In this document: piece by piece, positions 10,807 through 47,257 of the stretch
How the letters are laid out: the number at the start of each line of letters is the position of its first letter
Position numbering within the stretch: the first letter of the stretch is position 1
DNA from: Capitulum mitella
Lineage: Eukaryota; Arthropoda; Thecostraca; Pollicipedomorpha; Pollicipedidae
Reading direction: 5' to 3'
NCBI GenBank assembly: GCA_030062745.1
Contig: CP099840.1
Span: forward strand, 8,495,432 to 8,559,431
Length of the DNA stretch: 64,000 nucleotides
Made by a program: the position numbers and the translations under genes
Notes under the pieces: generated by a model
Told to the model about the DNA's origin: nothing
What the model saw: the letters and a program-made list of their open reading frames with translations, nothing else
Database searches by the model: none

Positions 10807-10924
10807 CGTCGAACAGGACGTCCTGGTAGTGGATGTCGCGTTTGGCTGCGTTCTGCCGCTCCTGGTGCTCCCAGTGCTGCCGCAGCTGCTGACGGAGGCC
10901 ATCCTCAGGAGCCGTCTCAGAAGC
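10807..10924 (-). CDS. CCDC174 ortholog, coding exon 5
   Basis: On the minus strand the exon starts after acceptor TTGCCCGACAG and ends at donor G|GTGAGTGG, giving 39 codons plus one base. It begins ASETAPEDGLRQQLRQHWEH and ends RDIHYQDVLFD. The LRQQLRQ.WE run and the HYQD motif align with the conserved block of CCDC174 in which a glutamine/glutamate-rich helix leads to VHYEDI. The family continues with a GVGYFAF block and a basic coiled coil; that part is not found between here and the left end, so it is probably outside the window. Phase 0 at the 5' side agrees with exon 4. Confidence 0.88.
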
Positions 10925-14704: not shown

Positions 14705-14819
14705 CTGAGCACCTTCCTGACCGGCGGTCGCATCCCTCTCCAGGTCGCGCCGCTTGTATTCAGCCAGGTCCTTCTTCATGACGGTCCGAGAGCGGCCCAG
14801 CGAATCAGTGTACTCCACC
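14705..14819 (-). CDS. CCDC174 ortholog, coding exon 4
   Basis: The exon is 115 bases: one base completing a Trp codon, then 38 codons starting VEYTDSLGRSRTVMKKDLAE and ending ATAGQEGAQ. The (E/D)W-V-(E/D)Y-x-DSLGRSR-x-x-x-KKDL block is the most diagnostic motif of CCDC174. The acceptor is TGGTCTGACAG and the donor CAG|GTGCGC, the latter weak. Phases fit exon 3 (phase 2) and exon 5 (phase 0). CCDC174 is a nuclear coiled-coil protein reported to associate with the exon junction complex helicase EIF4A3. The acceptor and first 12 exon bases are the last unit of the 47-bp minisatellite that lies immediately upstream. Confidence 0.93.
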
Positions 14820-14984
14820 CTGTCAGACCACAGCAATACACAGCGTCAGTTACAGTGTACTCCACCCTGTCGGACCACAGCAATACACAGCGTCAGTTAC
14901 AGTGTACTCCACCCTGTCAGACCACAGCAATACACAGCGTCAGTTACAGTGTACTCCACCCTGTCGGACCACAGCAATACACAG
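14809..14984. repeat. 47-bp minisatellite, exon-side block (about 3.7 units)
   Basis: Units of 47 bp begin with GTGTACTCCACCCTGTC on the plus strand. On the minus strand each reads TCTGACAG followed by GGTGGAGTACAC, that is, the exon-4 acceptor and the first 12 exon bases. The first unit overlaps the real exon 4. The block ends where a transposon has inserted. Confidence 0.95.
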
Positions 14985-15689
14985 TAGGGTGGATCGAAAA
15001 TACATTTTTTGTCACAAAACAACTTCTTAGGGGTCAAAACACGTGCGCGTGGATCTGAAAACACGGAAAATAAGGAGTAAAAAGATATTAAAAATATTCT
15101 AGAAAGGGCGCACGAAGCGTCTTTGAAGTGAGTTTCGCCGTTCTCCAGCATTAAAGTCTCCATTGGTTTAGCATTACGCATAGCAAGATAGCACCTCGGT
15201 CACCATCCACCGTAGCTGTGCGTAGCTTTGCGGGCCTTTTAGTGTCTGTAGTTTACGGATAGGTGATGAGCATGGATTTGAGCAAATAACAGGAGACTAC
15301 CAGGTAAAATAAAGTGGTAGACAGACAGTAGCCCTTACGAGCTAAGACCGCGCACCAGTGAGCCTCACGACCTGCGATAGATGCGGACTACAGAGTCCGA
15401 GTAGAATTCGTGGGCCTCCCACACATATCGTTGCCCACGCTGCTCATCTCTGAGGACGCTCTTGGAAACCTTGATCGGTGCCGGTAAACGATACCTCGCA
15501 GCGAAGAGCTTTGTTGTCATCAGGGAGCGGTCGAATCAGACAGACACGTCAGAAGAGTAGCGCGCTGGTCCCTGGACTGTGGCGTGGTGACCAGAGATTT
15601 AGTACTCGGGTGTGTTCCGTCAGCATGCGGATCGCAGGGGGTGACATTCTGTGACATTCTGTGACAGTGACATTCTGAACTGAGCTAAA

Positions 15690-16373
15690 ATGAGTAATCC
15701 ACGACCATCAACAAGACAGAGAACGAAACACCCTCTGCTGCAAACAGGTCCGGACGCTCTTCCCATAAACCAGCTACCGTGGAAAAGAAAAGTGTATGCC
15801 TTTTACGTGAAGACACGGAGTGAAAGGACAACGCCTTCTGGAAAGAAGCGGACAAAACGAGAAATAGCAAAAGCAGTCAAGGACGCCATAGTAGACATCT
15901 GGGACAGAGCCAGTCTTATTACGTGGATACCAGTGGACGACGGAGAGGCGTCCCAAATGGGTGACACGTCGGGTAAGACCGAGAGAGAGATGTCAAATGT
16001 TATTTCGGAGAACAGGGTAACACAGAACGTAGAAAGACTGGCCATAACGGGGAGAACCTCATGAAATGGTCTTCGAAACGCGAACGGGGCAAGGGTCGAA
16101 AGTTCGTGAATATGCAGCGAGAGTACGATGGCTTATTTGGCATCATGTGATGCCGATGCGATCTTGCTGATGTCCCCTGTGGCACGTGCCCAGCTTCTAA
16201 AAGGGTGCAAGCTCAAGAAGCAGCTGTCCTCAAAGACCACCGAAGAGAGAAAAAGCTCTACATAGGCGGCGTTGACCGGAAGACAACCGAGGAAAATGTC
16301 CGAAGGCAGAAGAGAAGGGGGAAAAGAATGAAACTAGCGGGAGAGACAGAAGAGGGACAGGCAGCACGATTCT
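15690..16373 (+). pseudogene. N-terminal part of transposase-like protein, broken frames
   Basis: A first frame from ATG 15690 runs 124 codons (starts MSNPRPSTRQR; contains PWKRKVYAFYVKTRSE and KRTKREIAKAVKDAIVDIWD) and stops at 16062. A second frame, open before and through 16061-16373, carries QREYDGLFGIM, an in-frame TGA at 16148, then CRCDLADVPCGTC and KKLYIGGVDRKTT. The clustered CxC...CxxC pattern looks like a zinc-binding module. A GTAAGA...GAG segment at 15973-16010 could restore the first junction as a 38-bp intron, but the internal TGA and a second shift before 16373 have no such explanation, so this copy is probably decayed at its 5' end. Confidence 0.7.
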
Positions 16374-17951
16374 GAGGAAAGGGAACTGACCGAAGAGGAT
16401 GCAGATGACGACGATGATAGCAGTGAAAAGTGTCAGACGGGTGATACGGAGGCAGCTGATGCAAGCCGCTCTTATTCACCTAGTTTCGATGATGACGCGG
16501 ACGATGTCGCCATACAGAACCGACATCAGCTTCCGAATTTTTCGCGGATGTGTCATCGGTACGGTATCTCTGATCGCTCCGCGGCTTGCTTGCTGAACGC
16601 AGCTTTGGTTGATTATGGGATAATCACAGAGCACAACAAGGGTGAGCTGACAGACCGCAGCAAAATCCAGCGACAGAGAGACAAATGGGGTAAAGAAGAG
16701 GTGGTTGAAAGCCCATTGCAAAACCGACGTGACCGCTTAGCAGGATTCTATTACGACGGTAGGGAGGGCAAGACGCTGCAGAAAGTTGGTAAGAAATTGG
16801 CGTTTGCCAAAGAACTGCACGAGATAGTGGTTACTGAGTCCGGCCATCGGTATGTCGATCACGTGTCTCCAAATAGCGGAAGTGCTGCAGATATCGCGAA
16901 GGAGTTGCTGGATGTGATACGGAACAACGATGCGCATCCAGTGGTGCTTGGATCAGACGGCATAGCGGTAAATACCGGCCGCAACAGTGGTGTGAACAAG
17001 CGAATCGAACTGGGTGTAGGCCGTCCGCTCCAGCAAGCTATATGCGTCATCCACATCAACGAACTGACGCTGAGACATGTGTTCAAGGATGCTGATGGTG
17101 GAACGGGTGGTCTAGCATCCTTCCACGGACCAGTTGGCAAAACCTTTCAGAGAGATCTGACCACACTGCCTTTGGCTAAGTTTGAGCCAGTGCCGGGACT
17201 AGTTCCTTCAATTCCGGTAGAAGTTCGAAATGAGATGAGCAAAGATCAGCAATACCTGCATGACATGTGTAGGGCCGTCCCGGCAGGACCAGAAGGTGTT
17301 ACCCAGTGCTTGTTGGCCTTAGAACCAGGGGCCATCCATCAAGCCCGTTGGGTTACACTTGCAAATAGAGTACTCAAACTGTACCTGTCCACAGAGGCTC
17401 CAGCACCGGCGCTTGTACGGCTAGTACATTTTATACTAAACCAGAACGGCCCCGGATGGTTCAGATACAGACTTCATTCAAATATCAGCGACGGAGTAAA
17501 GAACCTGTTCTTTCTGATATCGCTGTCAAGAAAGCTGCCGGAGAGAGACCGTAACATCACGCAAAAGCTGCTTCGGCGCAACGGGTTCTGGGCCCACAGT
17601 GAGCATGTCCTGATCGCTATGCTGGCCGACGATCAGCAGGAGAACAGGATGCTGGCGGTAGAGCGCATAAGGAGATGTCGAACCAGAAGATGCCAGGACC
17701 AGGATCCAGATGGCATACGCCAGTTCGTTATCCCTGACATCAGCTTCCATGCCGAGGAGTACCACCACATGATTGACTGGCAAGATACAACGGAACCACC
17801 CTTCGTCATGGAAATGTTAGACGAGACCATCGCAGCTGTTGTGGAAACACCAATGGACTTCAGTGACTTTCCCTGCCACTACCAAGGGGTCGAACGATGG
17901 GTGAAAGCAGTCACACAAACGGCAGAGAAGAAGGCGGACGTCATGCACTGA
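16338..17951 (+). CDS. Transposase-like core protein, RNase H-like (putative)
   Basis: One frame is open from 16338 to TGA at 17951, with a Met at 16548 beginning 467 residues. An acidic stretch (EEDADDDDDSSEK) leads into the core. Counting from that Met, notable motifs are FYYDGREGKTL (about 68-78), VVLGSDGIAVNTG (132-144), a VIHINELTLRHVF block (167-179), FHGPVGKTF (192-200), ARWVTLANRVLKLYL, RRNGFWAHSEHVLIAMLADD, and near the C-terminus DFPCHYQGVERWVK. The D70 and D137 motifs plus the conserved RW and the late acidic positions suggest a DDE/RNase H-type integrase. I recognise a similar, unnamed family in aphids and cnidarians only from memory, so the superfamily call is open. Confidence 0.72.
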   Translation, partial: RERQKRDRQHDSEERELTEEDADDDDDSSEKCQTGDTEAADASRSYSPSFDDDADDVAIQNRHQLPNFSRMCHRYGISDRSAACLLNAALVDYGIITEHNKGELTDRSKIQRQRDKWGKEEVVESPLQNRRDRLAGFYYDGREGKTLQKVGKKLAFAKELHEIVVTESGHRYVDHVSPNSGSAADIAKELLDVIRNNDAHPVVLGSDGIAVNTGRNSGVNKRIELGVGRPLQQAICVIHINELTLRHVFKDADGGTGGLASFHGPVGKTFQRDLTTLPLAKFEPVPGLVPSIPVEVRNEMSKDQQYLHDMCRAVPAGPEGVTQCLLALEPGAIHQARWVTLANRVLKLYLSTEAPAPALVRLVHFILNQNGPGWFRYRLHSNISDGVKNLFFLISLSRKLPERDRNITQKLLRRNGFWAHSEHVLIAMLADDQQENRMLAVERIRRCRTRRCQDQDPDGIRQFVIPDISFHAEEYHHMIDWQDTTEPPFVMEMLDETIAAVVETPMDFSDFPCHYQGVERWVKAVTQTAEKKADVMH

Positions 17952-18158
17952 TACTGGCAAAAGCCCGGTCCAGGACTGATCTGCCAGTCACGGACACGAG
18001 GAGGGACTTCTATGACGGGCTTCGAGTGACAAGTGACCGCTGAAGCTGGTTTATTAGTGTCAGCGGAGTTTGTTGTGGAATGTCATTCATCACAAATAAA
18101 TAGTCCTGGTTTAACGTTGTGTCTGGGATGGCGTTTCATGAATGGTGAAGATAATAAT

Positions 18159-18160
18159 GA

Positions 18161-18191
<31 letters not shown>

Positions 18192-18211
18192 GATGAAGAT
18201 GACAATTATAT
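18159..18211. repeat. (GAT)n trinucleotide repeat
   Basis: An imperfect GAT/GAC run lies between the transposase stop and the right inverted end of the transposon. Confidence 0.9.
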
Positions 18212-18508
18212 GTTTCGATGGTTGCCGACATGCCGCAAACAGCGTTTGTTCGGCGCATGCGCTAAACGCCGAAAATTATCACTCACAGGATTCACATAGA
18301 CTTATGAAGGGTTACCTTCTTGTGCAAAATGTTTAAAGCAATGGAAACTTCAACGCCTAGAAGGCGTATTCCTGGTCCCAAAAATGTTTCGTGCGCCCTA
18401 TCTAAAATATTTTAAATATTTTTTTGGTCCTCATTTTTCTTGTTTCCACATTCGCGCGCACGCGTTTTGACCCCTAAGAAGTTGATTTATTTTTTTCGAT
18501 CCACCCTA

Positions 18509-19423
18509 ATACACAGCGTCAGTTACAGTGTACTCCACCCTGTCAGACCACAGCAATACACAGCGTCAGTTACAGTGTACTCCACCCTGTCAGACCACGG
18601 CAATACACAGCGTCAGTTACAGTGTACTCCACCCTGTCAGACCACAGCAATACACAGCGTCAGTTACAGTGTACTCCAGCCTGTCGGACCACAGCAATAC
18701 ACAGCGTCAGTTACAGTGTACTCCACCCTGTCAGACCACAGCAATATACAGCGTCAGTTACAGTGTACTCCACCCAGTCGGACCACAGCAATACACAGCG
18801 TCAGTTACAGTGTACTCCACCCTGTCAGACCACAGCAATACACAGCGTCAGTTACAGTGTACTCCAACCTGTCGGACCACAGCAATACACAGCGTCAGTT
18901 ACAGTGTACTCCACCCTGTCAGACCACAGCAATATATAGGGTCAGTTACAGTGTACTCCACCCAGTCGGACCACAGCAATACACAGCGTCAGTTACAGTG
19001 TACTCCACCCTGTCAGACCACAGCAATATATAGGGTCAGTTACAGTGTACTCCACCCAGTCGGACCACAGCAATACACAGCGTCAGTTACAGTGTACTCC
19101 ACCCTGTCAGACCACAGCAAGTACACGGCGTCAGTTACAGTGCACTCCACCCTGTCAGACCACAGCAATACACAGCGTCAGTTACAGTGTACTCCACCCT
19201 GTCGGACCACAGCAATACACGGCGTCAGTTACAGTGTACTCCACCCTGTAAGACCACAGCAATACACAGCGTCAGTTACAGTGTACTTCACCCTGTCGGA
19301 CCACAGCAATACACAGCGCCAGTTACAGTGTACTCCACCCCGTAAGACCACAGCAATACACAGCGTCAGTTACAGTGTACTCCACCCTGTAAGACCACAG
19401 CAATGCACAGCGTCAGTTGTAGT
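18509..19423. repeat. 47-bp minisatellite, distal block (about 19 units)
   Basis: Continues the block at 14809-14984 beyond the inserted transposon, with the same period and phase. Variants include TGTCAG/TGTCGG/CAGTCGG and AATACACAGC/AATATATAGG. All three forward frames lack stops, giving a 47-residue pseudo-repeat that is not a protein. It ends in a degraded unit at about 19423. Confidence 0.95.
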
Positions 19424-19647
19424 GTGCCACATCCTTCCGAGCCACAGCTGGGACTTCTTAAGTGAAGGTATGCATGCTCATCAACATGGTGAGTATGATC
19501 CCATTATTCAGAAATCCCATTTTAAGTCACACGAATCAATTGCATAGACATTTACATTACGTAAACACTAAAATCCGGAACACCGAACTGCAGCAAATTT
19601 GGTTTCAACTGCAACATTAAGGTTCGTAATATCACACATATCATCAC

Positions 19648-19716
19648 TGATATTACGAACTGTGATATTACGAATTGTGATATTACGAAATGTGATATTA
19701 CGAACTGTGATATTAC
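19648..19716. repeat. 15-bp tandem repeat
   Basis: About 4.6 copies of TGATATTACGAACTG with single-base variants. Confidence 0.92.
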
Positions 19717-20581
19717 AACTAATATATAGCACACATATCATACATAGCACGCGTTAAAAGGTATCAGGAGTTCAGGAGAAATCTACAGCACTAAACACAT
19801 CAAAACAGGGACCGAACGAATATAATTAAGCCATGTGGCAGTCTAATTCTTGCTTTGTTCCTATTCATCCCATTTGTATGGTGGGCCGCATAAATTTGTA
19901 TTTCGTACCATACTGGATTTTATTTCACTCACACCGGTTTCCACCTGACGCCCCATCTGTATCAGCCGTGCGTAGTACAGTATCCAACCTTGTCCGCAGG
20001 GGCAATTCTGCGTTCATGACATAGACGTAAGGTACTCAAACAACAAAACTGGGAAAGGCGAAAATGTGTTTGCATGTAAATCTAACAGCGCCTTGAAGCC
20101 GACGGGTCACGCAAAATAATGTGCATCGCTATGAGACAAATGTCATAGCACCAGCGTTGATATGTGAGGTATTTCAGACACAATAACATGCCATACTTCC
20201 ACACACGTAACTTGAGCTGTAGCGCGCATAAATGACTCGCCAAAAGCAAACGACTCGCTGTAGGTCCAGAGCTTGGGCTGAGGGGGCAAATAAATTTTAA
20301 AAACATTTCTCACTGCGCAACACACTTACAAATAAATTCTGCAACAAACTGAGAGGAAGAAGCCCCCATCTTCGTCGTCACGCGGCCCTGGCTCAAAGCC
20401 TTCGCGGAAGCCAACCTTCCACCATGAGAACGTTTCTTGCGGGCATATATGCCGTAGACAGCAATCCTGAGCACAAGCGAAGGACGCAGCAATCCGGGCA
20501 AGCTTGCTTACAATGAGCAGCATTCCTTCCGATCTTTTCAGATCTCCGATCGGTTTGCCGCCCAGCCAGCGGAGGTTCCTG

Positions 20582-20764
20582 ATGGTCCAGGACCAGACAG
20601 TCCAGGGGCCGGACGGTCCAGGGGTCAGACGGTCCAGGAGCCGGACGGTCCAGGGGCCAGACGGTCCAGGGCCCAGGGGTCAGACGGTCCAGGGGCCGGA
20701 CGGTCCAGGGGTCAGACGGTCCAGGGGTCAGACGGTCCAGGGGCCGGACGGCCCAGGGGCCGGA
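20582..20764. repeat. 16-bp GC-rich minisatellite
   Basis: Alternating GGTCCAGGGGCCGGAC and GGTCCAGGGGTCAGAC units, about 11 copies. Open frames across it are compositional artefacts. Confidence 0.93.
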
Positions 20765-23700
20765 TGGCAGGACGATCCGTGGAGGGACAGTCCAGGGCCG
20801 AACGGTGCGCGGGCCGGCGGGCGGCCGTTCCTGTACCGGAGTCGTTATCGAGCGGCCGGCCGGCCCGCCAACGTCACGTTCTGCACGCCACGCCGCGCCG
20901 CGCCGCGCTGCGCTGCAGACAACAGAGGCTGGCCATCGGCCGCCCACGGCCGCGGCCGCGGCCCGCGCACCGCTCGCTGCACAGCGAACGCGTTATTTCC
21001 GCCCGCTTCACGTCATCAAACGGCCCTCCACCACCGACTTCGGTCCCCGGCGAGGGTACAGAGCTGGACATCAGGCTCGCGCCACGCTAGATGCATGAAA
21101 AGCACTGTTCGTCAACGTGCCATGGTGAGGGCTCACTTGCGCGGCTGCAGGCTACAGCTGCACAAATGCCCTATTTGGCCGTATGAGCTTTACAACAGGA
21201 CGATCTACAAACGCTCCAAAACTGTACGTTTCGCGCCACAAGGGTGTAAACATGCATGCAAGTGACGCACTGATGTGCTGAGACGCCAGAAACCAAACAA
21301 GACGACTACCACAAGCCGCATAATTGTCAATCTTCCACAGGACGTGACACTGTGCCGAGCTCCCACACTACGTACGTACACACACTGTAACGAACGAAGT
21401 TAATAACAAAGTTAGTAACAAACGGCCACAGTCCGTGATATACTATCAGACGTGCACAATACGCGATACAGTGTCAAACGCCCAGTCGGTGGTACGGTAC
21501 CAAACACGCACCTCCAATGATACAGTGTCAAACATCCATAGTCGTGATACCGTACCAGCACCTAGTCAGTGAACCAGTGCTGAACAGACACAGTCAATCA
21601 CAGTCAATGCCGCTAAAATCCGTTGTCACATCGTTGCCCGTACACCAGATTCAGACGCTGGTGTTTCTTTGCACCCGTCCCGGTGTGTCATTCCCTTCAC
21701 GCGATGCACAATGGGCGAGCTTTCACGAACCAAATTAGTAAAGCTCAATAGTCCCATAGCTGTTTGGTCCAATTTTTGGTGAGCTTTGGCGACGGACTTG
21801 TTTTTACTACAACAGACAAAATTTATGGCGACAAAACGTAGTGATACTGGTTTAACACTACCGAATGATACGAATTTATGTTCTTTTTTCTAATGGCTTT
21901 GGATTTTAGTTCAACGGCACATACCAACTAAACACCGGAAACATAACGCATGAACAAACTTTCCCTCGTTCGCTGCAGCGGTACCACCGTTACGGGAGGT
22001 CAAAGGGATCACCAGTGGAAGCCAGCCTGTAATGTCAACTGCTATTCACAAATTACGTAGTTTTGTTGACGAGTACCTGATTGGTCGCTGGCATTACCGG
22101 AATGTCATCGTGCACTGAACCACATGGGTCAGCCAGTGCATTCAACCTCCCTCACTCGGTGAGGCGGACAGTTTGAAACAGTCCAATGGGGCGGGTCTAG
22201 AAAACGAACACTCAAAAGGAAATCACGAAACAGAATACAAGGCAATGAATACATCTGCCCATTTATGTCCTCCCCTAATTTCCATCATCCGTTGTGCGAA
22301 ACATTTATCCATCTGACTTTTTGCTCGAGTGTCGTTATGGAAACGGGCAATATGCTGACTGGCAGGCACAGCATTTAATGGACACAAAATACAACGGACA
22401 GCTCATTGAGCATTTATGGACATTACGACTGTAATACCAATCACGATGAAGTAAAGAAGACCCTAGCGTACACACATGTCTTCAGCGTCATACGCATGCA
22501 TATATGTTACGTGTTGGGAAGCGCCGCACCGACCGGCCCGCCGCCGGGCCCGGTCCTGCAGCGGCCACCTGGCCGATCCCTGCGCCGGCTGCGCCGCAAT
22601 ACTGCGTCGCGGATGCCGGTGTCCCGCGGCTGTGGCCGGGACGTGGCATAAGCGACCGTGTTTTGCAACTGTTGTCAAAAGGCACACGGCATCAGGACGT
22701 GGTGTAAGAAAAACTTCAACCTCGCTAGCCAACAAACTAACTTCACAGACGGACTTTAACTGCGCGCCACATCCGGCCAGGGACGTCGCCAAGAGGCCGG
22801 TACTGGAAGGACGGAGCCCCGAAGTGTGACGATCCCGCGCTTTACACATCACTTCGTCATATGTACTGTTACTATGCTATTGCCCACCGTGCTGCTTCTG
22901 CCTATGGCCGACCATCGCGGTCCCCACAAGCGAAATCCCAACCACCTCTGCATGGCTAATTCGAATCGTTCTAACCTCCTCCCCTGCCTCCGAGTTCACC
23001 ATTCGACTGACGTTCCCAGGACGACAGGCGTCGGCAGCAGCCGGTGAGCGGTCGCCGGCGCTCAGTGTGGCCGTCCGTTCTGAGCCCCCCGCCAGAGCGG
23101 CTGCGCCCCGAGCACGCCGATGGCTCGGCCGGTCCGCCGATGGCCGGGCGGAGCCGGGGGAACGCCCGGCCGGATGCCGGGTATTAGCCTCGCCGCGCCG
23201 GCGCCGGCGCGGACGCACTGCCCCGCCGTCGGGTCCGATGCCGCACGCGCCGTGTGCAGTAACACTGTCCGACGGTCGGCGGAATGCCACGGACCGGCAG
23301 GCCGGCCGCATTCCGAGCTAGCGTGCCGCACATACTCGCCCTGCGCAATCGACCCATGAATGCCCGACACCCAAAATGGCTCCCTCAAGTGAGTCGGTTA
23401 CTGTTTCAAAATGAGACATTAAGCTTTGGCGCCGGTGTCATGTTGTTTGCGCCGCGATGTTTCAAGCACTCAAAGTTCATTGCGGGGGCCGAAACAGGAA
23501 CGGGAGCAGACCGTCTGATCACGCCAACCCGTCACACTTCCAGCAGGGCACGGCGTGTGGAGTATTCGGAGCGGACGGCCTGAAATGCCAGCGACACTTT
23601 CAAAGTCCGCAATGTTCCGCATTTTGCTAGTCGGCTTTGATACCGGCAGACGTCTGACTCGTGCCTCTAGGCCAGGTGATAGCAATACTCTTCAGCAGGA

Positions 23701-25796
23701 CGAGGTCGACAGGGAGCTCGCAACGCGGACAGCTCTGCCCCGATTCGCTGTCATCTCGGCCTACTGGCTACCTGACTGAGTGCTGTCACCCGGACAGCGG
23801 AGCAACATTGATGAGGCTGTAAGACAAACAGACGTCGTTTCCACTCCTTTTCAAACACACAGCGCGCTGAACAGGCGAGGCATCGCTCAACTCTTGCTGG
23901 CGTACGCTTAGATCAAATTGTGCGCTGCGGCGGCACACCGTGCAATTGCGCTCTCGCACCAGTCCCTCCAGGCACACTGTGCACACGGCGACTGGCGACT
24001 CTTGGAGCGTACATGGAGCCCTTCCGTCAGCCTGCTACGCTTGCACTATGCAGTTAACAACACTGACTCACATCATGTAGTCCCGCACAAAAGAAGCCTC
24101 AGCTGAATTCAAAGAACTTATTTCGTCGTGCTTGCGTACTAACGGGGGTCACGATCATCCACTCTCCTCAGGTTTTATACCTCGCCCGGAGAGTGGACCT
24201 TACAGCCCGCCCCCCGGATTTTACCTGAAAACTCGTGTTTGATTTGACACATCATGCTGTAATATTCTTTAGCTGAATTCTGAACATTTTTATACCATAT
24301 GGGAGTCTCAACATTTTTCGTCCGGCCGTTTTTTGAGAAATTACTTGTCCGCTGAAAAAGTTACAAATGGTCTGATACGAAAGGTCAAAGACTATTTTTC
24401 AGGACAGAGTTAAGGTGTCCTTAATAAAACAAGATGTCCTTAGTCATGAAGCTATGGTTTGCAATGCCCGTTTTACGTGTATCATGTTCACGTTCATAAA
24501 ATGCACGTGGATGCGCATGATGCGCGCGTGGACGCGCGCACTGGTGTCTGCACTGTACACACCGGTATACAACGTACAGTAACACGGTACTGTCAAACAC
24601 TGCACATCATAAACGAAGCCATGGGGGGGAGCGAAGGTGGCGGCGGCCCCCTCCTGGGGAAAAACGGAGGCCCGGGAGGGGCCCCATTTTAACCTTCGGG
24701 ACTCTTGACTCCTTCGAGAACTTACAGGATTATCAAATGTGGCCCCTGAGGCTATAGCGGGCCCTCCAGGTTGCTAAAAGGAGGTCCACGGGACACCCCT
24801 TGACGCTACAAAAGGCCCCCTTGATGCAATAAGAGTAGGAAGCCCCGTTCCGGAGGATCCGTTCCCCCCCACCCCCACCCCGGCTGATTCCTGGTTACGT
24901 GCCTGCACGGCATTACATGAAGTTGCAAAAAGGGGACAAAACAATGATGACACGAAAAAGCTCATTACCAAGACAAAGACTGCACACGCGAGTTAAAAAG
25001 TAACATGTGTAGCAAATCAACGGAAGTTGCAAGTATTGCATAAACGACACACGTCACGTTTCGATATTGAGCACTGAAGCACAATTTACGTTACCTCATT
25101 ACATTTTAGTGACGTATACCCAGCGGAATACATTTCTGAACCCATGGAACATAAAATAACAAAAACGCACTCATTCTGACCAACTGCGGTGCGCTTGCAA
25201 CATTCGGCTCCGGAGACGGCAGCCGTCCTCAGTTCGGCCACCCGTGTGCCCGCGGGAATACGGCGCCGCGGCCACGTGACGCCCGCCCTGCAGTCCCTCA
25301 ACCACTGACAGACCAGGATCAACCAGAGGGACGGCGCAACAATCCGTAGAGCTCTAGACAGCCGGGTTCCTGCCCCCGTAGGGCCATGCTCTGCGAGAAC
25401 GGCAATCAGCTCTGGTGCGCCCGAGCCACTGCCTCCGGGCAGCTGCAGATCCCGCGCTGCCGACTCACAGCAGCACGAGAATTCCCTCACCGAGCTGTCA
25501 GCGCCTGCAGCTGGCCGACTCGGGACACCAGGGCTTCTGTCACCTCCCTCTAAGCCGGTTTTTCCTAATCACTCCTTACCAGCATAGATATTTACACTTT
25601 ACTTTTACATAGCTTTTACGCTTATATCTCATTTTTAATTTCAATAGATACCTTCCGACTTCAGAATTCAGACATATACCGAACCCATCCGCAATAGGCT
25701 CACGGCTATTATGGCCTCACGTCAAAAGAAAAGTGGTTGACGTACCATGCCCATCGTGAATCACGTCTGTGCATGCGTGTGTACCATCATGCAGGG

Positions 25797-25990
25797 ACGT
25801 CGATTTCCGTAAATGATTGGGGGCGGGGGGCGAGCCGAGGGCCCAACGACCTAACCTTTCTCCAGATGTGTTTCTTAATGGATTTAGCCCACTTTGTTTT
25901 GCCCAAAGTTCGGAAATTTATCAGTTTTTTTTTGCTGCTATTTATCAAATAATCAGCTGCATTTATCTCCATGTATATAGGTACATACAG
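25797..25990. mobile_element. Fragment of the GTCGATTTCTGTAAATGATT repeat family
   Basis: Matches 12395-12535 and the left part of the element at 58928-59547. The shared order is GTCGATTTCCGTAAATGATT, CCGAGGGCCCAACGACC, TTTAGCCCACTTTG, then an AT-rich stretch. Its ends are not defined. Confidence 0.5.
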
Positions 25991-27286
25991 CCTTTTACAT
26001 ACAATAACGTTTTGAAAATTTCAAAATTTTCTTAGAGGCGGAGTCCGGAAGTCAAAATTGGGGTAACTGCTGGCAAACGTGCTCAACTCACGGTGTGGCC
26101 ATATTTACAGTATGGTTGCGGTCCTCTGATCACAAAAGGGCGCGTTCAGACGTTTTCGACATTGTTAAAGTCATATAAAACCAAAAAACCAAAGTTTTGG
26201 ATCTTGGATATCTAAATTTCGGATTTTGAAACGAAAAGAAATGCGTATGAAACATAAACCTGCATTTTTTGTCTTCATAATTTTACATCCTCGAACTTGT
26301 TAAGCTGACTAACTGAATACCCTTTTGGAATGTGCTAGATTTCCTTTAACCCCACTTAAAAACAACTGTATGCGTCCTAGACATGCTTCTAAATCCGATC
26401 GTGTGAAATAGCATTACCTGATATCATAATACAAGACTGTTGTGCTTTGTTTCTGAATTTTTCTGAAAGCGTCAAAACATGACTCCCTAAAACACCCTCT
26501 GTTTTTATTGTGGCGAGCTTGACCAAGAAAAAAATTTCCAAAAACAATCAAAATGTTCCAAAAAATGACCAACAAAACAAGACAATAAAGCTTCTCGTCT
26601 TTATCTCAAACGGTTTATAATGAATTGGCGAAAACCTAAAGGCGGGTGGGGGGGGGGGTGGGGGTAATCTGTCCCTTCACAGAAGTAAGGTTTAATGTGT
26701 ATGACGCTAGGCAGTAAAAACCACACATGCATGCATACGTACAGAATGACCTGTCAGAGGTCATATAAATCACATGGCTTGACATGATATTAATCTGCGG
26801 GACCAGGCCTACTCAATGTCGTTTTCCGATTTTATTGTCGTCTTTCATTCCCGAACTAACGGAGGGGTACTTTGAAGCCCCCTAGCAAAGCAAACGACAA
26901 GAATAATATACCTTATACCTTTTAATATCTGGATAATAATTTTAGTATGTTTTTTGGGGGGAGGGAGGGAGCAAAGTGAAGTGGGCGGCGTCGGGATGCT
27001 ATGTCATGTCCATGCCGGGCAGAGGCTGGTGCCAGACGGTGATCCTGCCACCCATTCTTCAGGCAAAATGTCGTCAGTTTCCGATGCGGACATCCAAGAA
27101 ACCAATCTCCCGTCGCATCTCGAGACGGCAGTCGAGGTCCCCTCAGTGGTCTGGTATATGCGCAGTCTAGGCACGCGCACGCTTAACCGTTCTGCGCTGA
27201 AACAACAGTGAACCGCAAATCGTCCTCCGACAAGGACGAACAAGAGCCGTCTACCGAACGCGCAAGACCAACGGCTCGTCTCCGGG

Positions 27287-27434
27287 CCCGACCAGACCAA
27301 GACAGCCACTGGGTTCGACCAGACCGAGACCGTCACTGGGTCCGACCAGACCAAGACAGCCAGTGCGTCCGACCAGACCAAGACGGCCACTGGGCCTCGT
27401 CACTGGGTCCGATCAAACCGAGACCGTCACTGGC
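27287..27434. repeat. 27-bp minisatellite
   Basis: About five units of GACCAGACCAAGACAGCCAC + TGGGTCC. The period is a multiple of three, so one frame reads RPDQDSHWV repeated, but the frame has no start context, signal or family match, and I do not call it a gene. Confidence 0.85.
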
Positions 27435-27789
27435 CATAGGCTGCAAACAGGTCGCACATGAACGGACCGCGGCCTGACCCGAACATGGCACCAAAAGCTG
27501 TCTCTCAACTACAAGAGGTCACACGAGACTCTGCTGCCGGCCATGTCAGGACGTTAACCGCAGTGAACAGCGGAAGCGCTGTCAAAACGGAAAGCTTTCG
27601 GACAACCTGCATGCTGATGACGTGGCCTCTACCGTTGCTCATCACGGGTGAACATGATATTCTCACCTGTTCGTGGGCAGCCAGCGGTATGTAACTGCAG
27701 AGACGGCAAACGCTGTATCCTCCAGGCCCGTTTGGCACCAATGTACCCATGCGACGCGAGGTCGTTTCCAAGCCAAATCACAATGCCAT

Positions 27790-28185
27790 AGTTCACAATG
27801 GTGCACCATTGAGGTGGTCTGAAGTGCACGAAGTTACTCCAATACAACGAGAACGGAATTTTCCCATTACCGTTGGAAGAGCTTTCCAAACTGGTGCGAC
27901 ACAACATTATTTTGAGCAGCTTTCATCTCGCCGCGAATCAATTAAAGTTCTGCTATATCTGACGTCCCTGCCGACGCCACGTTTTTGCGCGCGCGCTTGC
28001 GACGCCATGCTCTGACTGGCTGTTGTGCGCAGATGTGAAGTTTAGCTGCCAGGAGATCGCCGCTGTGACACACGCCATCTAAAGCACTTTACCTACAGTC
28101 GCCGGCGGAGAGCAAGACGACTATGATAACTCACTTCTCAGCTGCAGAACGCGCGGAACGGGACCGACTATTTTCACCGCAACTG
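27790..28185 (+). repeat. Dispersed ~400-bp repeat, copy 1
   Basis: The sequence is the reverse complement of 31955-32345 with interspersed mismatches. A shared anchor is TTTAGCTGCCAGGAGATCGC at about 28041, and ATGATAACTCACTTCTCAG follows. There are no clear coding remnants. It looks like two opposite copies of a short dispersed element. Confidence 0.7.
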
Positions 28186-29189
28186 CATGAACAAGAGCCG
28201 TACAAGGGTTTGGAATCGACAGGGGTTTCGACTTCTATCGATCAGAGAAAAAATTTTGCCCTTGTTTTGCGATGATCAATAAATTTATCCATAAAGTGCA
28301 GTTTATGACAGATTGCACATCACATGTTTGGAGATCGGTGAGGATGGAAAAGGCAAAGCAAGGGCACATGGAGAAACACGGGTTTTCCAAACTTCATCAC
28401 CGACGCTCCTTCAGAAGTCACAGCAACAATGCCACTATCCATGGACGGCCTGAATTCCAACAGAACTCTTCACGACTTCCACAGCTATTTTGACATCCAT
28501 ATTATCTGTGTCTCTTACCATACCCAAGTTCCAATGCTGGTTCTGTTCGTAAACATAAATGTTCATTTGTCATTTGTTCCTCTCACCGATAGTACACTCA
28601 TCAAAGGACAAGAAAAATCGCTACCGGTCCTCAACTATATTTAAGCACAAGCTGGGTCAAAGATTTATGATACTTAGGCACAACGAAACCTCAGTCTGCT
28701 ACCGCACACCGAATAAAGCAGCTGTTTACAACAGTGTTGAAACAAACGTCGTCTAAAGCCAAGAGTTTTGCCAGCATTTCCCCCCATGTTTTTTTTTCCT
28801 TAGGAATGATTCCATTTTTGGCCGGCCGCTTCTTATCTTCGCTTTTTTTTAACTTGGCGCGCCTGCGTCAGTATCAAAGGCCAAACGTGAAAGATAATTA
28901 TGAAGTGCAAAAACACTACTACGGGACTCCGTTATCATCTGCAGAGCAAAGCAAAAATTTATGTCGGTGATACGGACACCGATCAAAACGTGCAAGATAA
29001 TTACCAAGAACAAAACACTACTAAATGGCTCCGTTATCATCCGCGGAGAGTAAGGATCAGATCCGTGATACAGACACAGAGGGGGCAAGCTCCAAGGAAG
29101 CAAAGATGAACAGCGGCCAGCCAAAGACAGAAGCATTCTTAAGGAAAGAAAATGGGCAAAACTCGTGGCTTTACACAATCTTGGATTGG

Positions 29190-31566
29190 ATCGGACCGGA
29201 TCTCCCGAGGTCTCGAGAACTAAACTTCTGATTTCATCGCATTAAACCGCAATCAATTTGCCATGATGTAAACTACATTTTTATAAAAAAGAAGATTTCA
29301 GAACTTGGAAGGGGTGGACACTAGAGGGCAAAAAAGCCAAAATGGGGAATGCTTCTGTGCTTGTTATAACTCTGTTGTTCATGGACCGATTTTGATGAGA
29401 TTGACATGAATCGAGAGATTATGAATGGGACTTTTACCACTGGTCCATGCGTTTGAAATTTTAGGAAAATTCATAGGTCGTCACAGGATTTCGAAAATGG
29501 GAAGATTATTTATTCAAAAACTGGATTAAAAAGGCAAAAACTTTTTTTGGCTTTTACTTGTCATCTTATGTTTAAGAAGTACAAATCGTATTACACTTTT
29601 AGTAAAATGTTGGCATAGGCGGTGCCAGGGATATGAAAAAGGGGGGACTGTCATGGTCACATGTTCATCAGGTCAACTTACGCCCATTGACCTTAACCCT
29701 ATTCCCAGCGGGGAGGGGGGGGGGCTGAATCCGTCCCCCTCCGCTTTTTTTTTGCTTGAGAATTCCAGGGTTTTTGACGCAGCTTCACGAAACCTGGTCA
29801 TTTTTGCCTAGCTATTCTTTCTACGTGTCGTAACAAAATTTCGTCATTTTATTTTGCTCAGGGGCGGAGCCAGGCGACGTTTTTGGGAGTACACTCAGGC
29901 CCTTTTTGACCTTAAAGAAGATAACAGAAAAATGGCTGCCAAAAATAGAGTTTTTAAGACAGAACTTAAAACTTTGTCAGGATGTGTAGGTAAATAGTTG
30001 GGCAGCATACAAATACAGTTTCGTTCGTCTGAGGCCACTTCACAAGATCAGGTGAAGGTAAAAGGCAAAATTCGGTTCCACAGTAATAATTTTGGCGCTA
30101 TTTTTTTAAATGCCAAACACAGAATACACATGACGTAGAATGGTGCCCCCTATTTGTGCACCAAGTTTCACGTTGATATCTGGTCGAGTCAAGGAGCTAT
30201 GACCTAAAATGTCAGTGCGCGCATCCTATATCACAACAGCCGTAAAACGGAATTTTAGAAACAGAGTAATAGCAGATGACTGGAAACGTTTTCAAAGAAC
30301 ATGAAATACACACAATATGATTCCAAGTGACTCTCAGGCCACTGGAGTTCACTGAAGGCCAAAGGTCGTGAGCTGATCTGACAAACATGTGACCATGACA
30401 GTTCCCCTTTTTCATGTCCCTGACAACGCCTATGCTCGCATTGTACAAACATTGTAATACGATTTGTGCTTCTTCAGCATGACATGACTAGTGGAAACCA
30501 AAAAGGTGTTTTTAACTTTGTTGTTAATCCTTTTTTGAAAAAAAAAATGATCTTCTTATTTTTGAAACCCTGTGAATGCCTATGAAATTTCTCAAAATTT
30601 GAAATGTATGGACTAATAGTAAAAGTTCCATCTATAATGTTTCGATTCATGCCAATTTCACTAAAATCGGTCCATAAACAACGGAGTTATAACAAGTCCA
30701 AAACATCCCCCATTTTGACTTCTTTGTCCCTCTGTATCCACCCCTTTCAAAATTCTGAAAGCATCTTTTTATGAAAATGTACATAGTTTACATCATGGTA
30801 AATCGACTACCGTTTGTTGCGATGAAACTGGATGTGTAATTCTCGAGATCTCAGAGGGGGGAGGCGAATCCGCCCCTGCCGGGAAACGGCAGTACCGTCT
30901 AGCCCTCTGGGAATAGGGTTAAAAGACCTCCAATGACCTTAGAGTCACTTAATATGATTTTGGGTGCATATCAAACTGTCTGAAAACGTTTCCAATCATC
31001 TGAATTAAATCTATTTCTAAAATTCCATTTTACGGCTGTTGCGATTATAAGGCTGTACCCACTGACATTTTAGGTCATAGTTCCGGGACACGACCTGATA
31101 TCAACCTGAACCTTGGTACACAAGTAGAGGGTACTCTTCTGTGTCATATATACTGGAGATCGGCATTTAAAAAAGAACAGCGCCAAAATTATTACTACAA
31201 AGCCAAAGTCTGACTTTTGACCTTTATTTGACCTCAAGTGGCCTCGATTGACAAAATTATATTTGGACACTTTCCCAACTATTTACCTATACACCTATAC
31301 AAAGTGTTAAGTCCTATCTTAAAAACGCCATTTTCGGAAGCGATTTTCCTTTTAACCTCAAAAGGGCCAAAAATGGCCTGAGGTACCTTCCAAAAACGTT
31401 GCCTGGCTCCGCCCCTCAGCAAAAAATAATTACGAAATTTTATTACAGTACGTCAAAGAATAGGAAGGGAAAGTGACCAAGTTTCGTGAAGCTGCGTCAA
31501 AAATCCTGGAATTGGCCAGCAAAAAACCCGAGGGGGAGGATTCAGCCTCCCTCGACCGGAATAGGG
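29190..31566 (+). mobile_element. TTAA-type element family 1, outer (interrupted) copy
   Basis: The left half (29190-29696) and right half (30919-31566) together match the copy at 39201-40663. They are separated by a full opposite-facing copy of the same family. The right end is GGAATAGGG followed by TTAA at 31567-31570. The left end lacks the terminal ~70 bp seen in the other copies. It is non-coding, and relics of old divergence are visible. Confidence 0.82.
29697..30918 (-). mobile_element. TTAA-type element family 1, inner copy inserted into its own kind
   Basis: A 1222-bp element with ends CCCTATTCCC and GGGAATAGGG lies exactly between TTAA at 29693-29696 and TTAA at 30919-30922. In the intact copy at 39201-40663 the corresponding position reads GGCC-TTAA-ATGAACTCC, so insertion duplicated that single TTAA. 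CCC termini with TTAA duplication are the hallmark of piggyBac-type MITEs. Confidence 0.88.
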
Positions 31567-31954
31567 TTAAGGTATAATGTCCATTGATGACGATGATGAC
31601 GATGACGGCGAACTGAAGTTTATGAAGCACCGTAATTACCTACTATCTCATGCAACAAGTCTATCTCCTATCTGCCCAATAAACCTGACAAATTTTCCCT
31701 CCCTCCCCTCATATTTGTGTCCTTCTCCCCAGTTCAATCACCTTCACTGCGACGAGTACGTTATAGCTTGGATGTACGATGATGTACTTGAGTGTCAGTA
31801 CTATACGATACTATGGAAAAATCTTTAATACACCCCAGTTTATCGACCAATTTACTGAAAATGTTTAAGAGGGTAAAATCATATCCGTTACCAACAGAAA
31901 TCAAAGCATGTATCAATTTCCAACCCTAGTACGGCCTCTGTTGATGCCATTGCG

Positions 31955-32345
31955 GTGATAATGCACGGCCCCGTTCCGCAAGGTCTACAACTGAGAAGTG
32001 AGTTATCATCACTCTCCTAATCCGTCAACGACTCCAGGTCTTAGTGCCGATGGCGCTAATCACAGCGGCGATCTCCTGGCAGCTAAACCCAGCATTTGTC
32101 CATAACAGTCAATCAGAGCACGGTGTTGCTAGCGCACGGGAAAATGTAGTGACGGCGGGAGCTTTGTATCCCAGAATTTCAAAAGATTTACAGCAACGTG
32201 GAAGCTATTCAAAATATGTTGTGCCGCACCAATTTAGAAAGCTCTCACAGAGGACAATGAGAAAAACCCCGCTCCCGTTACAATGGAGCAACGTCTTAGG
32301 GTGGTGCATTTCGCACCACCCTAGTGCATCATGGTCCAACGTAGC
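31955..32345 (-). repeat. Dispersed ~400-bp repeat, copy 2, with terminal hairpin
   Basis: Reverse-complement partner of 27790-28185. Near its right end is a perfect stem-loop at 32297-32323: TAGGGTGGTGC, a 5-base loop ATTTC, then GCACCACCCTA. Confidence 0.75.
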
Positions 32346-32984
32346 AAGCAGCTGAGAAAAATATTGTACATAAGGTGTTCGCTTAAGGACTAGTGGCTCA
32401 GAAAACTTTCCCCACAGGCATCAACAACAAACAGTCATGTCAGAATCCTAAAGATCTTAATGAGGTGCACACACAAAAGATGCGCACGTTACAAATGCAG
32501 CAATATACAATGAAAAAGGGACCAGTTAACTGGGAGTATATGCATAGATATATATCGAAACAATGCCCTTCAGCCTGACAAACAAAAACGTTACTTTTGG
32601 CACCAACATCGGTATTCCAGAATCGTAAACATACAGATAACTTTCCTGCACAAATTGCCATGTTTACAAACGAAAAGAAAGCAACTACGCACACGCAGGG
32701 CGATGCCGTTGTGTCGCTTTGGAAAAGGCCTGATCCTTACAGGGCCTACAGATTCCTGGTCAGAATGCCCTCAACCAAATGGCTTGAATAAGAACATATA
32801 TCGATTCTTCAAGATACAACGACCAAGCGGTGCAGTACATGTCTCGTCAGGTAGGTGGACCTTTATACCATTTCCAAGCTAAAGAACGAGGCAATAAGCG
32901 CTTGTGAAATGAGCCTAGTTCGAATGGGTATATGGCTCTCTGAAATACTGATGCAATAATAATAGATAAGCACACCACGTGACC

Positions 32985-33187
32985 TAACGACTTTATTTGA
33001 GATCTCTTGCAAACGGAATGGTATTCCCATCATCACAATGTATGACTGTTGCGTCTGTAACGGGCTTGCGGACGGACTTATTTGAGTTGACTGACGACTT
33101 TATTTTAGATCCCCTGCAAACGGAACGGTATTCCCATCATCACAGTGTATGACTGTTACGCCTGTAACGGACTTGCGGACGGACTTT
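32985..33187. repeat. Two-copy tandem duplication, period about 107 bp
   Basis: Both copies include GACTTTATTT, GCAAACGGAA, GGTATTCCCATCATCACA, GTATGACTGTT and CTTGCGGACGGACTT in the same order, with about 10% difference. Confidence 0.85.
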
Positions 33188-35512
33188 AATTAAAGTGAAA
33201 ATAAACTTTAATTGCGACGATATTTCAGCTTCCTATCAGCGAAAAAGCCACCCAAGCAAATCCTTTTTTCCTCCCCTCAATTTCAGTCCACAAAATTTCC
33301 AATTCGCGTGCGCCCATTCTCGTGCTCAACTATTCCCGCAACCTGTCGTTAGGGCACGACGTATCATCATCCAATTATCACAATGAGAGACTAATCTTGT
33401 TGACTTATAAGAGACTAAACTTGTTGATTTGTAAGTCCATAAAAACTAGAGAATTTAAAACACAGTTGCTGCAACGTTCAGTGCCAGGCACATACTGCTC
33501 CAAATGCCCGCTAACTTAACACACCGCTTCAAATGTCAGCTAACTTGTGGCGACTTCACCGCACGTTAAAGTGAAAACGTCTTGGCTTGGATGGCTTAGA
33601 CAAGATCACGTCGAAGTGCCAGTTCAAGCTGTCTCACATCAAAGCGTCCATACGGGTGCAATGGACTCAGGTCGACGCGTAAGGCAGGTTCAAGTCGGCC
33701 TTGGCTGGCTGGGATGTTAGGACGCGCCGACAGAGAAGGCCGTGTGGCTCCCGTTACAAAAACCAGAAACCTTCTGCAGTGAGTGAAGACGTCAGGTATC
33801 ATAGACTCGACGATACACTCCATCAGTGCATGCATTTCACAGTGGATACCAGCAAATCAGATGCACGAACCCTATAAAGGTAAAGCTGCAGATGATCTAG
33901 TGAATAATCACAGACGCGTCAAACAGTAAAGTAACGAAAAGAGAGGGGAAATCTGCCGCCGAGGCCTGAACCATAAGGGGCCGGGCTACACAGTCCAGCT
34001 CGTGGCAGACACTAGATACGAGTCCCACAACAGCCCCTGTTATTAGCCCCAGACCCAAAGGGCCAGACGTTCATGGGCCGGCAGTATCGTCCAGTTGCAC
34101 GGCACGATAAAAACCCTCCAGCACCATCTGGTTCGGTGCCTCGGGCGCAATAATTCTGTACTTAGGATCATTCGGGTCGCGAGGTCGTGGTCCAGCAACA
34201 GGTTCGGCTTTGAATGAACTCCGTTCGCAACACTACCCACGTTAATAGGTTTGAGGTAATCCATAAAAATGCACTTATTATTCGCGGAGGCCATTTTGAC
34301 ACAAGGATTTCTGTGATTCCGTTGATTCTGATGAGTGACTAAGTTTTCCGAAGTGCACGCAAGTAAAAGGGCCGTCTTTAACAAAATGCCCAAACATTTC
34401 GACACAACTTCGCCTTCGTCAGTGGCATCAGTCACTGGCCATGTTGTGCCGATTTATTTGGCACTTTTATAACGAGTCTTTGGAGTTTTAATCCTAACCT
34501 GGTCGGCCTCAAGAGCCAACTTCGCCGAGCCGGAGGCTCATGAGAACCCCACCCTATAAGATCTCGATGACCATAAGTGCAACATAAAAAGTAGGAACAC
34601 CGATGGAGCGCCCATGGCGAGACAAAAAGGAAGCGCTCAGACTTTTCTAGCCACATCAATACCAGGGTCACTAGAGGTCATCTACCGGACAACAGTCACG
34701 TTTTTCTGAATGTATGCGACTGTGTTTTGGTTCAGACATGCGGCGTGTTTGCGACACTTGGAGTATCGAACGCACTCTAAATGTGCCTGGAACGTAATAG
34801 GAGTCTGACTCTGCGCCTGTCTCATTAAGGTTAAAGAAGGTAAACATAGGTCCGAATTTCGAATTCAGCAGATCCGGCGTACATGACTTCTGTCGCAATA
34901 TCTACTGCGTTTCCATTGATGAGATACGAAACGGCACATAATTCGTAAATATTAAATCTATAAACGTAATTATTTTCCCTTGAAGGCCGGCACGGAACTG
35001 TGGCATGGTCCTGCGCATTATGTCCGGACCATCCTGGGCGCCGTGTAATGATCTGACAGCGTGTGTCAGCCCCCGTATAGGAGAACTGGCTTTGTCAGAC
35101 AAATATTCAGAGGTTAAAATCAGTCGGAGACGCTTCCCTGCGAGCTAAATGCAGCAAAAACGTGGCAATTTCGCCACGACATAGTTACGTCAATACATGC
35201 CGTATTCAGTGAGCAGCCTCTGACGGGTACGAGGCCTCGCGGCTTCTGATTCCAAGAACAAGCAAGCACACCACTGAATGGCCAGAAATTCATCTACACC
35301 AGAGACGACATCGACTACGTGTTCTGGCCAGGCCAAAAATTACATAACCTTCCCAGGAGCAGCATTTCGCCTCGTGAATGACGTGAATTACAGGCCATGG
35401 CGCGCTTAATGCCTACCTCGCGTTCACCGTAGTGCAAACACCACAGTGTCGTAGTGCTCAATGTCTGATATGCCTGTGTTCTGCCCCGAATGGTCTCTAC
35501 ATTCCGCCGAAC

Positions 35513-35785
35513 GAAGGTCGGTTCAGGTCAGGTCAGGTCAGAGCATCAGGCGGGTTCACGTCAACTCAAGTCGCAGCGTCAGGCGGGTTCAGGCGATCTC
35601 AGGTCAGGTCACGTCAGGGCAGGGCATTAGTCGGGCTCAGGTTGGCTTGCATAAGAGCGGCCGGCGGGCTCAGGTCAACCCAGGCCAGGTCAGGTCAGCC
35701 TTCAGGGCATCATGCGAGTTCAGGTTGGTTCAGGTCGGAGCGTCAGGCAGGTTCTGGTCAGTTCAGGTCAAGGCGTCCGAATGCA
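35513..35785. repeat. Dense cluster of AGGTCA-type half-sites
   Basis: Degenerate GGTTCAGGTCAGGTCAGG-like units of irregular spacing, with more than a dozen (A/C)AGGTCA matches in one orientation. It is probably a short-period tandem repeat; open frames through it are artefacts. Confidence 0.75.
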
Positions 35786-36113
35786 CAAGGAAGTCAGGTC
35801 CGCCCGAGGTCGAGGCAATTCGAATAATTACAAACTTGTCATACCCGCACGTGCGCTATGACGGTCAAGCCCACGCAATGGCCAGCAATGTGGGCCTCCA
35901 TGGCACCCTCTAACAAGATTCCGATACCGTGTTCTGCTGTAGTGTCAGTTCTCGGAGCACGGGGCACTCGAGGCACAGAGGCGCACCGCCGCCTGCTCGG
36001 GACGTCCCGAACGAAACAAGAGGTCCGGAGAGCGCCCCTGTATCGTCCCCAGCGGCCATCACACGCCCACTCGTCTGCCGGCGAGGGGTGACCGACCAGC
36101 TGGTGACACGTAC

Positions 36114-36323
36114 CACTCGTCGCCTGGAGTCAGGGCAGCCGGCGGCGCCTCACTGGCAGCTGCCAGCTCCGCCTCCTGGCGGAGCTGGCGGCGCCGCGTG
36201 ACGTCATCGATCGTCTTCTGTTGGAAGTTCACCAGGAAGCGCTCGTTGGTGGCATCGTCTTCTAGCGCTTCGGTGCCGGTTTGCAGCTTTTCGTACAGCT
36301 GCGACTTCGCCTCTAGCGCCGCC
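36114..36323 (-). CDS. CCDC174 ortholog, coding exon 3
   Basis: This exon has 210 bases: one base completing an Arg codon, 69 codons, then TG that completes Trp with exon 4. It starts AALEAKSQLYEKLQTGTEAL and includes NERFLVNFQQKTIDDVTRRR, ending in a Pro/Ala linker and GDE(W). The LYEK, E(D/E)(D/E), FLV-F-QK and the acidic lead-in to W-V-Y align with the coiled-coil N-half of CCDC174. The acceptor is GCGCCTGCCGCAG and the donor GTACGT. Splice phases agree on both sides, which excludes a chance frame. Confidence 0.93.
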
Positions 36324-42768: not shown

Positions 42769-42805
42769 TTAGGTTAGGTTAGGTTAGGTTAAGTTAGGTT
42801 AGGTT
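42769..42805 (+). repeat. Interstitial telomere-like (TTAGG)n block
   Basis: Seven consecutive TTAGG units, one of them TTAAG. TTAGG is the canonical telomere repeat of most arthropods, so this supports the taxonomic guess. Confidence 0.9.
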
Positions 42806-47066: not shown

Positions 47067-47257
47067 CTGGATCGGTCAAGGCTCTGGACCTCTGCAGCCT
47101 CCTCCTCCCTATCGCGCTCATCGCGGCGCTCAACGCCGGCGTTGGCCTTAGACCAGATTTTGGACTTGGAGGCAGACCTCTGGGGCAGGTCACACCGCAC
47201 ACGCAGTGCCTGTGACTCCTGCTGCTTCCTGTGCAGCTCAGCCTTCAGGTCGACCAG
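47067..47257 (-). CDS. CCDC174 ortholog, coding exon 2
   Basis: This exon is 191 bases: 63 codons plus two bases that complete Arg with exon 3. It starts LVDLKAELHRKQQES and contains SKSKIWSKANAGVERRDERD. The SLVDLKAEL-RKQ start and IWSK-N-GV block match the conserved N-terminal part of CCDC174. The acceptor is TATCGCTGCAG and the donor GTCAGC. Degenerate copies of the acceptor plus exon start lie just upstream in intron 1. Confidence 0.95.

Follow-up and report, generated by a model that had tools for sequence, protein, structure and literature searches.

The minisatellite of human IFI6 (6-16) was reportedly described by Turri in 1995 as supplying multiple splice donors. Minisatellite-like tandem duplications of exon-intron boundaries are known from amphioxus as mirages, described in Adh3 and in the globin genes BflGb6 and BflGb9 (PMC3087553) and also in TnC and PGBD5 (PMC3902484). 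The BflGb6 mirage is of the acceptor type, with 6 and 3 units of 150-160 bp in two haplotypes, and the BflGb9 mirage has its boundary at an exon end (PMC3087553). The RT-PCR results given for these arrays suggest that splicing is undisturbed (PMC3087553; PMC3902484), and a role in intron gain has been proposed for them (PMC3087553). Elsewhere, one duplication crossing an intron-exon boundary is reported to have become a new intron (PMC4974935), and internal tandem repeats at exon-intron boundaries in human segmental duplications are sometimes said to form new introns (PMC2812944). A limited search of the open-access literature yielded no arthropod case of a boundary minisatellite that we recognised; the first-pass annotation was fair in calling such arrays rarely described, although the kind already has a name in print, the amphioxus mirage.

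Here we describe such an array in a 64,000-nucleotide stretch of Capitulum mitella DNA (the window, C2:8495432-8559431; the genome searched comprised 477 Mb in 16 contigs). An amphioxus origin of the window was rejected, since at least 150 genome matches to the cuticle family Chitin_bind_4, typical of arthropods, point to an arthropod host (150 of 627 candidates were scored). In this stretch the acceptor of CCDC174 exon 4, together with the first bases of the exon, is copied in tandem on the minus strand in 47-bp units.

The CCDC174 gene and its acceptor array

Minus-strand exons 2, 3, 4, and 5 match part of human CCDC174, and their joining at splice sites read from the DNA gives a single open frame of 211 aa. 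The end of exon 5 was placed at a GTGAGT donor, one base past the end used in this frame reconstruction. Exon 4 alone matches the Pfam family CCDC174_GRSR (PF25449) with an E value of 3.5e-14 from profile position 2, and when spliced to exon 3 it matches with an E value of 3.8e-15 from profile position 1; because this junction completes the domain match, the exon-4 acceptor is correctly placed at 14819. A single genome match to the domain bears out the identification of the gene as CCDC174, and the same strand carries the C-terminal family DUF4078 approximately 80 kb downstream. The 38-aa exon-4 peptide had no match among solved structures up to E = 10, and the 211-aa product had no NCBIfam match up to E = 1; its Pfam match to FliD_N (E 0.11) fell below the cut-off and was taken as chance. 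The coordinates of all features are given in Table 1.

Table 1. Features of the CCDC174 locus, in window coordinates; a slash within letters marks a splice junction
Feature	Position	Strand	Remarks
CCDC174 exon 2, coding part	47067..47257	-	
CCDC174 exon 3	36114..36323	-	donor GAGTG/GTACGT
CCDC174 intron 3, 21,294 bp	14820..36113	-	contains array
CCDC174 exon 4, 115 nt	14705..14819	-	acceptor 14820/14819; donor CAG/GTGCGC; frame phase-matched with exons 2, 3, and 5
CCDC174 exon 5	10807..10924	-	acceptor CCGACAG/GCTTCT; end at G/GTGAGT
Exon-proximal array block	14806..14984	-	exon-overlapping end and decoys 1-3, heads 14866, 14913, 14960
Distal array block (Tandem Repeats Finder bounds)	18508..19425	-	decoys 4-22, heads 18539-19386
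DNA transposon, 3,524 bp	14985..18508	.	inserted inside array; terminal inverted repeats beginning TAGGGTGGATCGAAAA
Left target-site duplication, 8 bp	14977..14984	.	ATACACAG
Right target-site duplication, 8 bp	18509..18516	.	ATACACAG
Open frame of 467 aa within transposon	16548..17951	+	

Read on the minus strand, the array units run ...TCTGACAG/GGTGGAGTACAC, with a junction consensus across the array of TGTAACTGACGCTGTGTATTGCTGTGGTCTGACAG/GGTGGAGTACAC. There are 23 unit heads, spaced 47-48 bp apart within blocks. The earlier count of about 23 decoys is right for the heads, whereas the decoys number 22 and the twenty-third head is the real site. With its end at 14806, beyond the 14820/14819 junction, the array spans the exon-intron boundary. 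The exon bases of the unit code V-E-Y, adjoining the W that begins the CCDC174_GRSR match; as these bases encode part of a conserved domain, the exon is the source of the units. The first reading, a minisatellite seeded by the gene's own 3' splice site, accordingly stands, the units carrying both the exon-4 acceptor and exon bases.

A 21-mer of the unit had 22 matches in the window (at most 3 mismatches) and none in 100 shuffles, which excludes a chance origin of the array. A two-unit query matched the genome at the CCDC174 array only (11 matches), and the exact 20-base junction had 10 genome matches, all inside the array, comprising nine decoys and the real site. The units are therefore not each exact, as had been claimed: 18 of the 22 decoys keep the AG (TG replaces it in three and GG in one), but the exact junction is present in only nine of the 22.

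Tandem Repeats Finder resolved the array into two blocks rather than the single array first drawn from 14809 to 19423, the 3,524-bp transposon, overlooked in the first-pass annotation, lying between them and a degenerate extra unit standing at the distal edge (5' end 19433). This unit differs from the unit sequence at 8 of 47 positions, compared with 0-3 differences in the other uncut units listed; the comparison excluded a 48-bp unit and a further unit cut by the transposon. The interior units are thus homogenised and the distal edge unit is diverged, while the exon side has no diverged edge unit. Across 21 segments, including the real site but leaving out the transposon-flanking unit and the unit with one inserted base, 32 of 987 positions differ from the consensus. 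Units two apart in the distal block differ on average at 2.06 positions, compared with 3.29 for neighbours and 3.33 for units three apart, which indicates that growth proceeded partly by 94-bp dimers.

The target-site duplications of the transposon are perfect, and the insertion is in register with the 47-bp unit; it replaces the branch-point part of decoy 3. The left 216 bp of the element has at least 40 genome matches with 96-100% identity, this copy included (40 of 244 candidates were scored), and three other copies among the matches listed have the full score, so that the insertion is probably recent. The 467-aa open frame had no Pfam match up to E = 1.

The window contains 24 merged tandem arrays with a period of at least 12, covering 10.3% of it with the CCDC174 array included. 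A long 34-bp minisatellite at 7813-9109 lies downstream of exon 5 on the gene strand and touches no exon found here. At 54582-57249, two arrays with a 478-bp unit appear to face in opposite directions, with an 11-bp repeat at each outer end (CAGCCCATATT and GAATATGGGCT). A short interstitial array of TTAGG, the arthropod telomere motif, is present at 42769-42805 (7.4 copies). In the first 600 bases of three contigs, no telomere repeat was visible by eye in two, and the third consisted wholly of N.

Splice signals and consequences of decoy use

From -20 to +3, five of the 22 decoys show no difference from the real site, and two show none from -47 to +12; CTGAC is found at branch-point distance in 20. 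Scored with an acceptor matrix of 53 acceptor-like sites from 56 loci of this genome (three were dropped for a low preliminary score), a small matrix whose sites were chosen by rule and not from cDNA, 13 of the 22 decoys equal or exceed the real site, with five exact ties among them. Local strength can therefore not account for which site is chosen. The real acceptor itself scores 7.74, the 34th percentile of the matrix's own source sites. Among the 1,074 AGs of intron 3, 44 reach or exceed the score of the real site, which is itself counted; 14 of these (the real site and 13 decoys) belong to the array, and 30 lie outside it, transposon included. The real acceptor must therefore be chosen by context in any case, and the array is less exceptional, and less of a special hazard, than first stated, given these other AGs in the same intron, the undisturbed splicing reported for amphioxus arrays, and similar copies at a few other exon edges.

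Every one of the 22 decoys leads, on reading the frame, to a premature stop. As first noted, the nearest decoy adds 47 nt and runs into a stop within exon 4 proper, 88 nt in. The earlier statement that more distal decoys also reach stops holds for all 21 others: the stop lies 61 nt in for 18 decoys, at 31 nt for decoy 4 (on the array-transposon border), and at 109 and 49 nt for decoys 17 and 21. Decoys 3, 4, 7, 10, 13, 16, 17, and 20 add a multiple of three and meet a stop nonetheless. Premature stops upstream of further exon junctions are expected to trigger nonsense-mediated decay (NMD), and since such junctions follow downstream, decay would be expected for the decoy products.

Several other ways of viewing the array were set aside. 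In NAGNAG and close tandem acceptors the competing AGs are a few bases apart, and the 47-48 bp between unit heads within blocks rules these out. A donor minisatellite of the IFI6 type is ruled out as well, since the CCDC174 units copy an acceptor. The exon bases GUACAC are able to pair with GUGUAU of the unit, leaving the branch point in the loop; an RNA hairpin as discriminator was nevertheless rejected, the folding energy of the unit being ordinary (257 of 500 mononucleotide shuffles were as low or lower). Selection on the decoy AGs was likewise not adopted, because four losses in 22 are uninformative when substitutions occupy 32 of the 987 cells and one of the events was apparently copied.

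Boundary copies at other exons

To place the array among other exon edges of this genome, 56 acceptors were sampled near matches to two domain families. The first sampling took 30 loci each for RRM_1 (145 listed) and Helicase_C (81 listed); only the 16 helicase matches starting well inside the profile were used out of these 60, the RRM loci going unused because their matches start too near the start of the profile to place the acceptor. The second comprised 40 stretches chosen by hand where the match was partial: 20 came from the 51 helicase matches still left and 20 from the 115 RRM matches still left. A near-identical paralogue (L061, EIF4A3-like) and a stop-ridden locus (L053) were dropped from the first set. 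Gene names at these loci are our reading of the translations, not the output of a tool.

Acceptor-type boundary copies, checked by stacking, were found at four of the 56 sampled acceptors: three of 16 in the first set, which had been viewed before the question took shape, and one of 40 in the second, where none of the 20 RRM stretches had a copy spanning the acceptor. L060 (EIF4A3-like) has two extra acceptor copies; L066 (DDX24-like) has six, with AG kept in three; L074 (DDX27-like) has three, with AG kept in two; and L090 (HELQ-like) has one, with AG kept, its two copies being 93% identical. An automatic test applied where each match begins picked out L060, L074, L085, and L090. L085 was rejected as a boundary array on inspection since its copies do not span the acceptor, and L066 fell outside this narrow test. 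Together with the donor-type array below, all five other loci with boundary copies are helicase loci. The copies at L060, L061, L066, and L074 are more diverged than those of the CCDC174 array, L090 being the exception.

L069 (DDX41-like) carries a donor-type array at 2128-2360, with four copies of ...GGGAG/GTGAGTCA, the real one counted. Its 66-bp units consist of the exon end and GTGAGTCA, with AACAG directly before the exon-like copies, a placement that might let a unit serve as a short exon.

Comparable 30-bp intronic windows had copies in a mean of 2.4 of 56 loci (range 0-7), and tandem copies span 3.4% of intronic positions from -850 to -120. Set against that mean, four junctions in 56 indicate no strong exclusion of tandem arrays from exon borders. 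Tandem occupancy in the 56-locus survey is 8-9% from -150 to 0 compared with 0.3-2% beyond -525; this rise and the same counts would fit a preference of array formation for exon edges over random placement, a point against the by-product reading below, although the sample is too small to decide it. Small as it is, the survey suggests that copies across an exon boundary are not unusual in this genome.

Explanations and comparison with known systems

We consider it probable that the CCDC174 array is a boundary minisatellite of the mirage kind, a by-product of tandem duplication without selected function, in which splicing would normally take the exon-proximal acceptor and any leakage would pass to NMD. 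The 47-bp segment is apparently a complete 3' splice-site module, with a branch-point-like CTGAC, no intervening AG, the CAG, and 12-14 exon bases. Copied in tandem from the acceptor of exon 4, this module grew in part by 94-bp dimers, and the young DNA transposon entered the array later. That the units were copied from the exon, multiplied partly as dimers, received the insertion, and lead to stops is read directly from the DNA, and the remaining steps draw on general knowledge: the exon-proximal acceptor would normally be used because exon definition, through exon 4's own donor and the exon body, would favour it. Decoys would then be used rarely, their products would carry a premature stop and be removed by NMD, and the array would have no selected function.

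An ordinary intronic minisatellite abutting the exon by chance, without exon-derived sequence, might be expected in a window so rich in arrays, yet it is scarcely credible, as the shared exon bases that code V-E-Y inside the CCDC174_GRSR match contradict it. That the copy number or the entire array was mis-assembled is highly improbable; tandem arrays are error-prone and this one is known from an assembly, but its unit differences are structured in the dimer pattern, a transposon with target-site duplications sits in register inside it, and independent arrays of the same kind occur at other genes. The transposon raises another reading, in which the decoys are inert only in the transposon-bearing allele, where 19 of the 22 are set approximately 3.5 kb off, and other alleles behave differently. 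The recent insertion and the damage to decoy 3 speak for it, whereas decoys 1 and 2 keep complete signals near the exon and one haplotype was seen; we hold it to be very unlikely.

A regulatory use of the decoys, of the kind offered in the first-pass annotation as one of two options, by which a steady share of transcripts would pass through them to NMD and copy number would set CCDC174 output, possibly with feedback by the protein, appears very unlikely as well, if a little less so. Each of the 22 decoys leads to a stop that precedes further exon junctions, with the DUF4078 exon approximately 80 kb downstream; in mouse cells CCDC174 reportedly works together with NRDE2 at weak 5' splice sites (PMC10351895), and it is called an alternative-splicing regulator (PMC13270137). 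As CCDC174 is itself a splicing factor, feedback on its own array is a tempting idea, and one might picture a heritable, length-variable rheostat whose acceptor copies divert transcripts into NMD in a share that the protein adjusts, a picture we give little credence. Against such tuning, the published text places CCDC174 at 5' and not 3' splice sites (PMC10351895), and amphioxus arrays of the same kind are described as leaving splicing undisturbed (PMC3087553, PMC3902484). Four of the 22 decoys, moreover, have lost the AG, so that there is no sign of constraint, and three of these losses are probably one event copied along the array.

The locus offers a natural test of spliceosome choice: the 22 decoy acceptors in front of exon 4 are nearly alike, and two match the real site at all of 59 bases. 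It opposes the order of transcription to closeness to the exon and its donor. If boundary copies are not rare here, they would also form an arthropod set in which to examine how tandem duplication gives rise to introns, as has been asked for amphioxus in the mirage report (PMC3087553).

The IFI6 minisatellite resembles the CCDC174 array in that the units of both are splice sites, and differs in that its sites are donors for which alternative use is reported, whereas those here are acceptors (PMC4526556). In the intron gain by a single duplication, the acceptor, putative branch site, and exon start were copied across the intron-exon boundary, as they are here, but there one duplication gave a new intron, and here 22 copies stand with no new intron shown (PMC4974935). 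The human segmental duplications share minisatellite expansion at gene-structure borders, although the changes that the report describes concern exons or introns of paralogues and not an acceptor-seeded array of such length (PMC2812944).

The amphioxus mirages differ from the array in their host, an arthropod here, in the 6 and 3 units of BflGb6 compared with 22 decoys, in the transposon inside the array here, and in having had their splicing checked by RT-PCR, whereas the CCDC174 array is known from genome sequence. The units of both span the boundary and carry the splice signal with exon bases; interior units are homogenised and edge units diverged in both, here at the distal edge only; and the 47-bp unit falls within the 10-72 bp range given for amphioxus Adh3. 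The CCDC174 array thus joins the known mirage kind, with several relatives in this genome.
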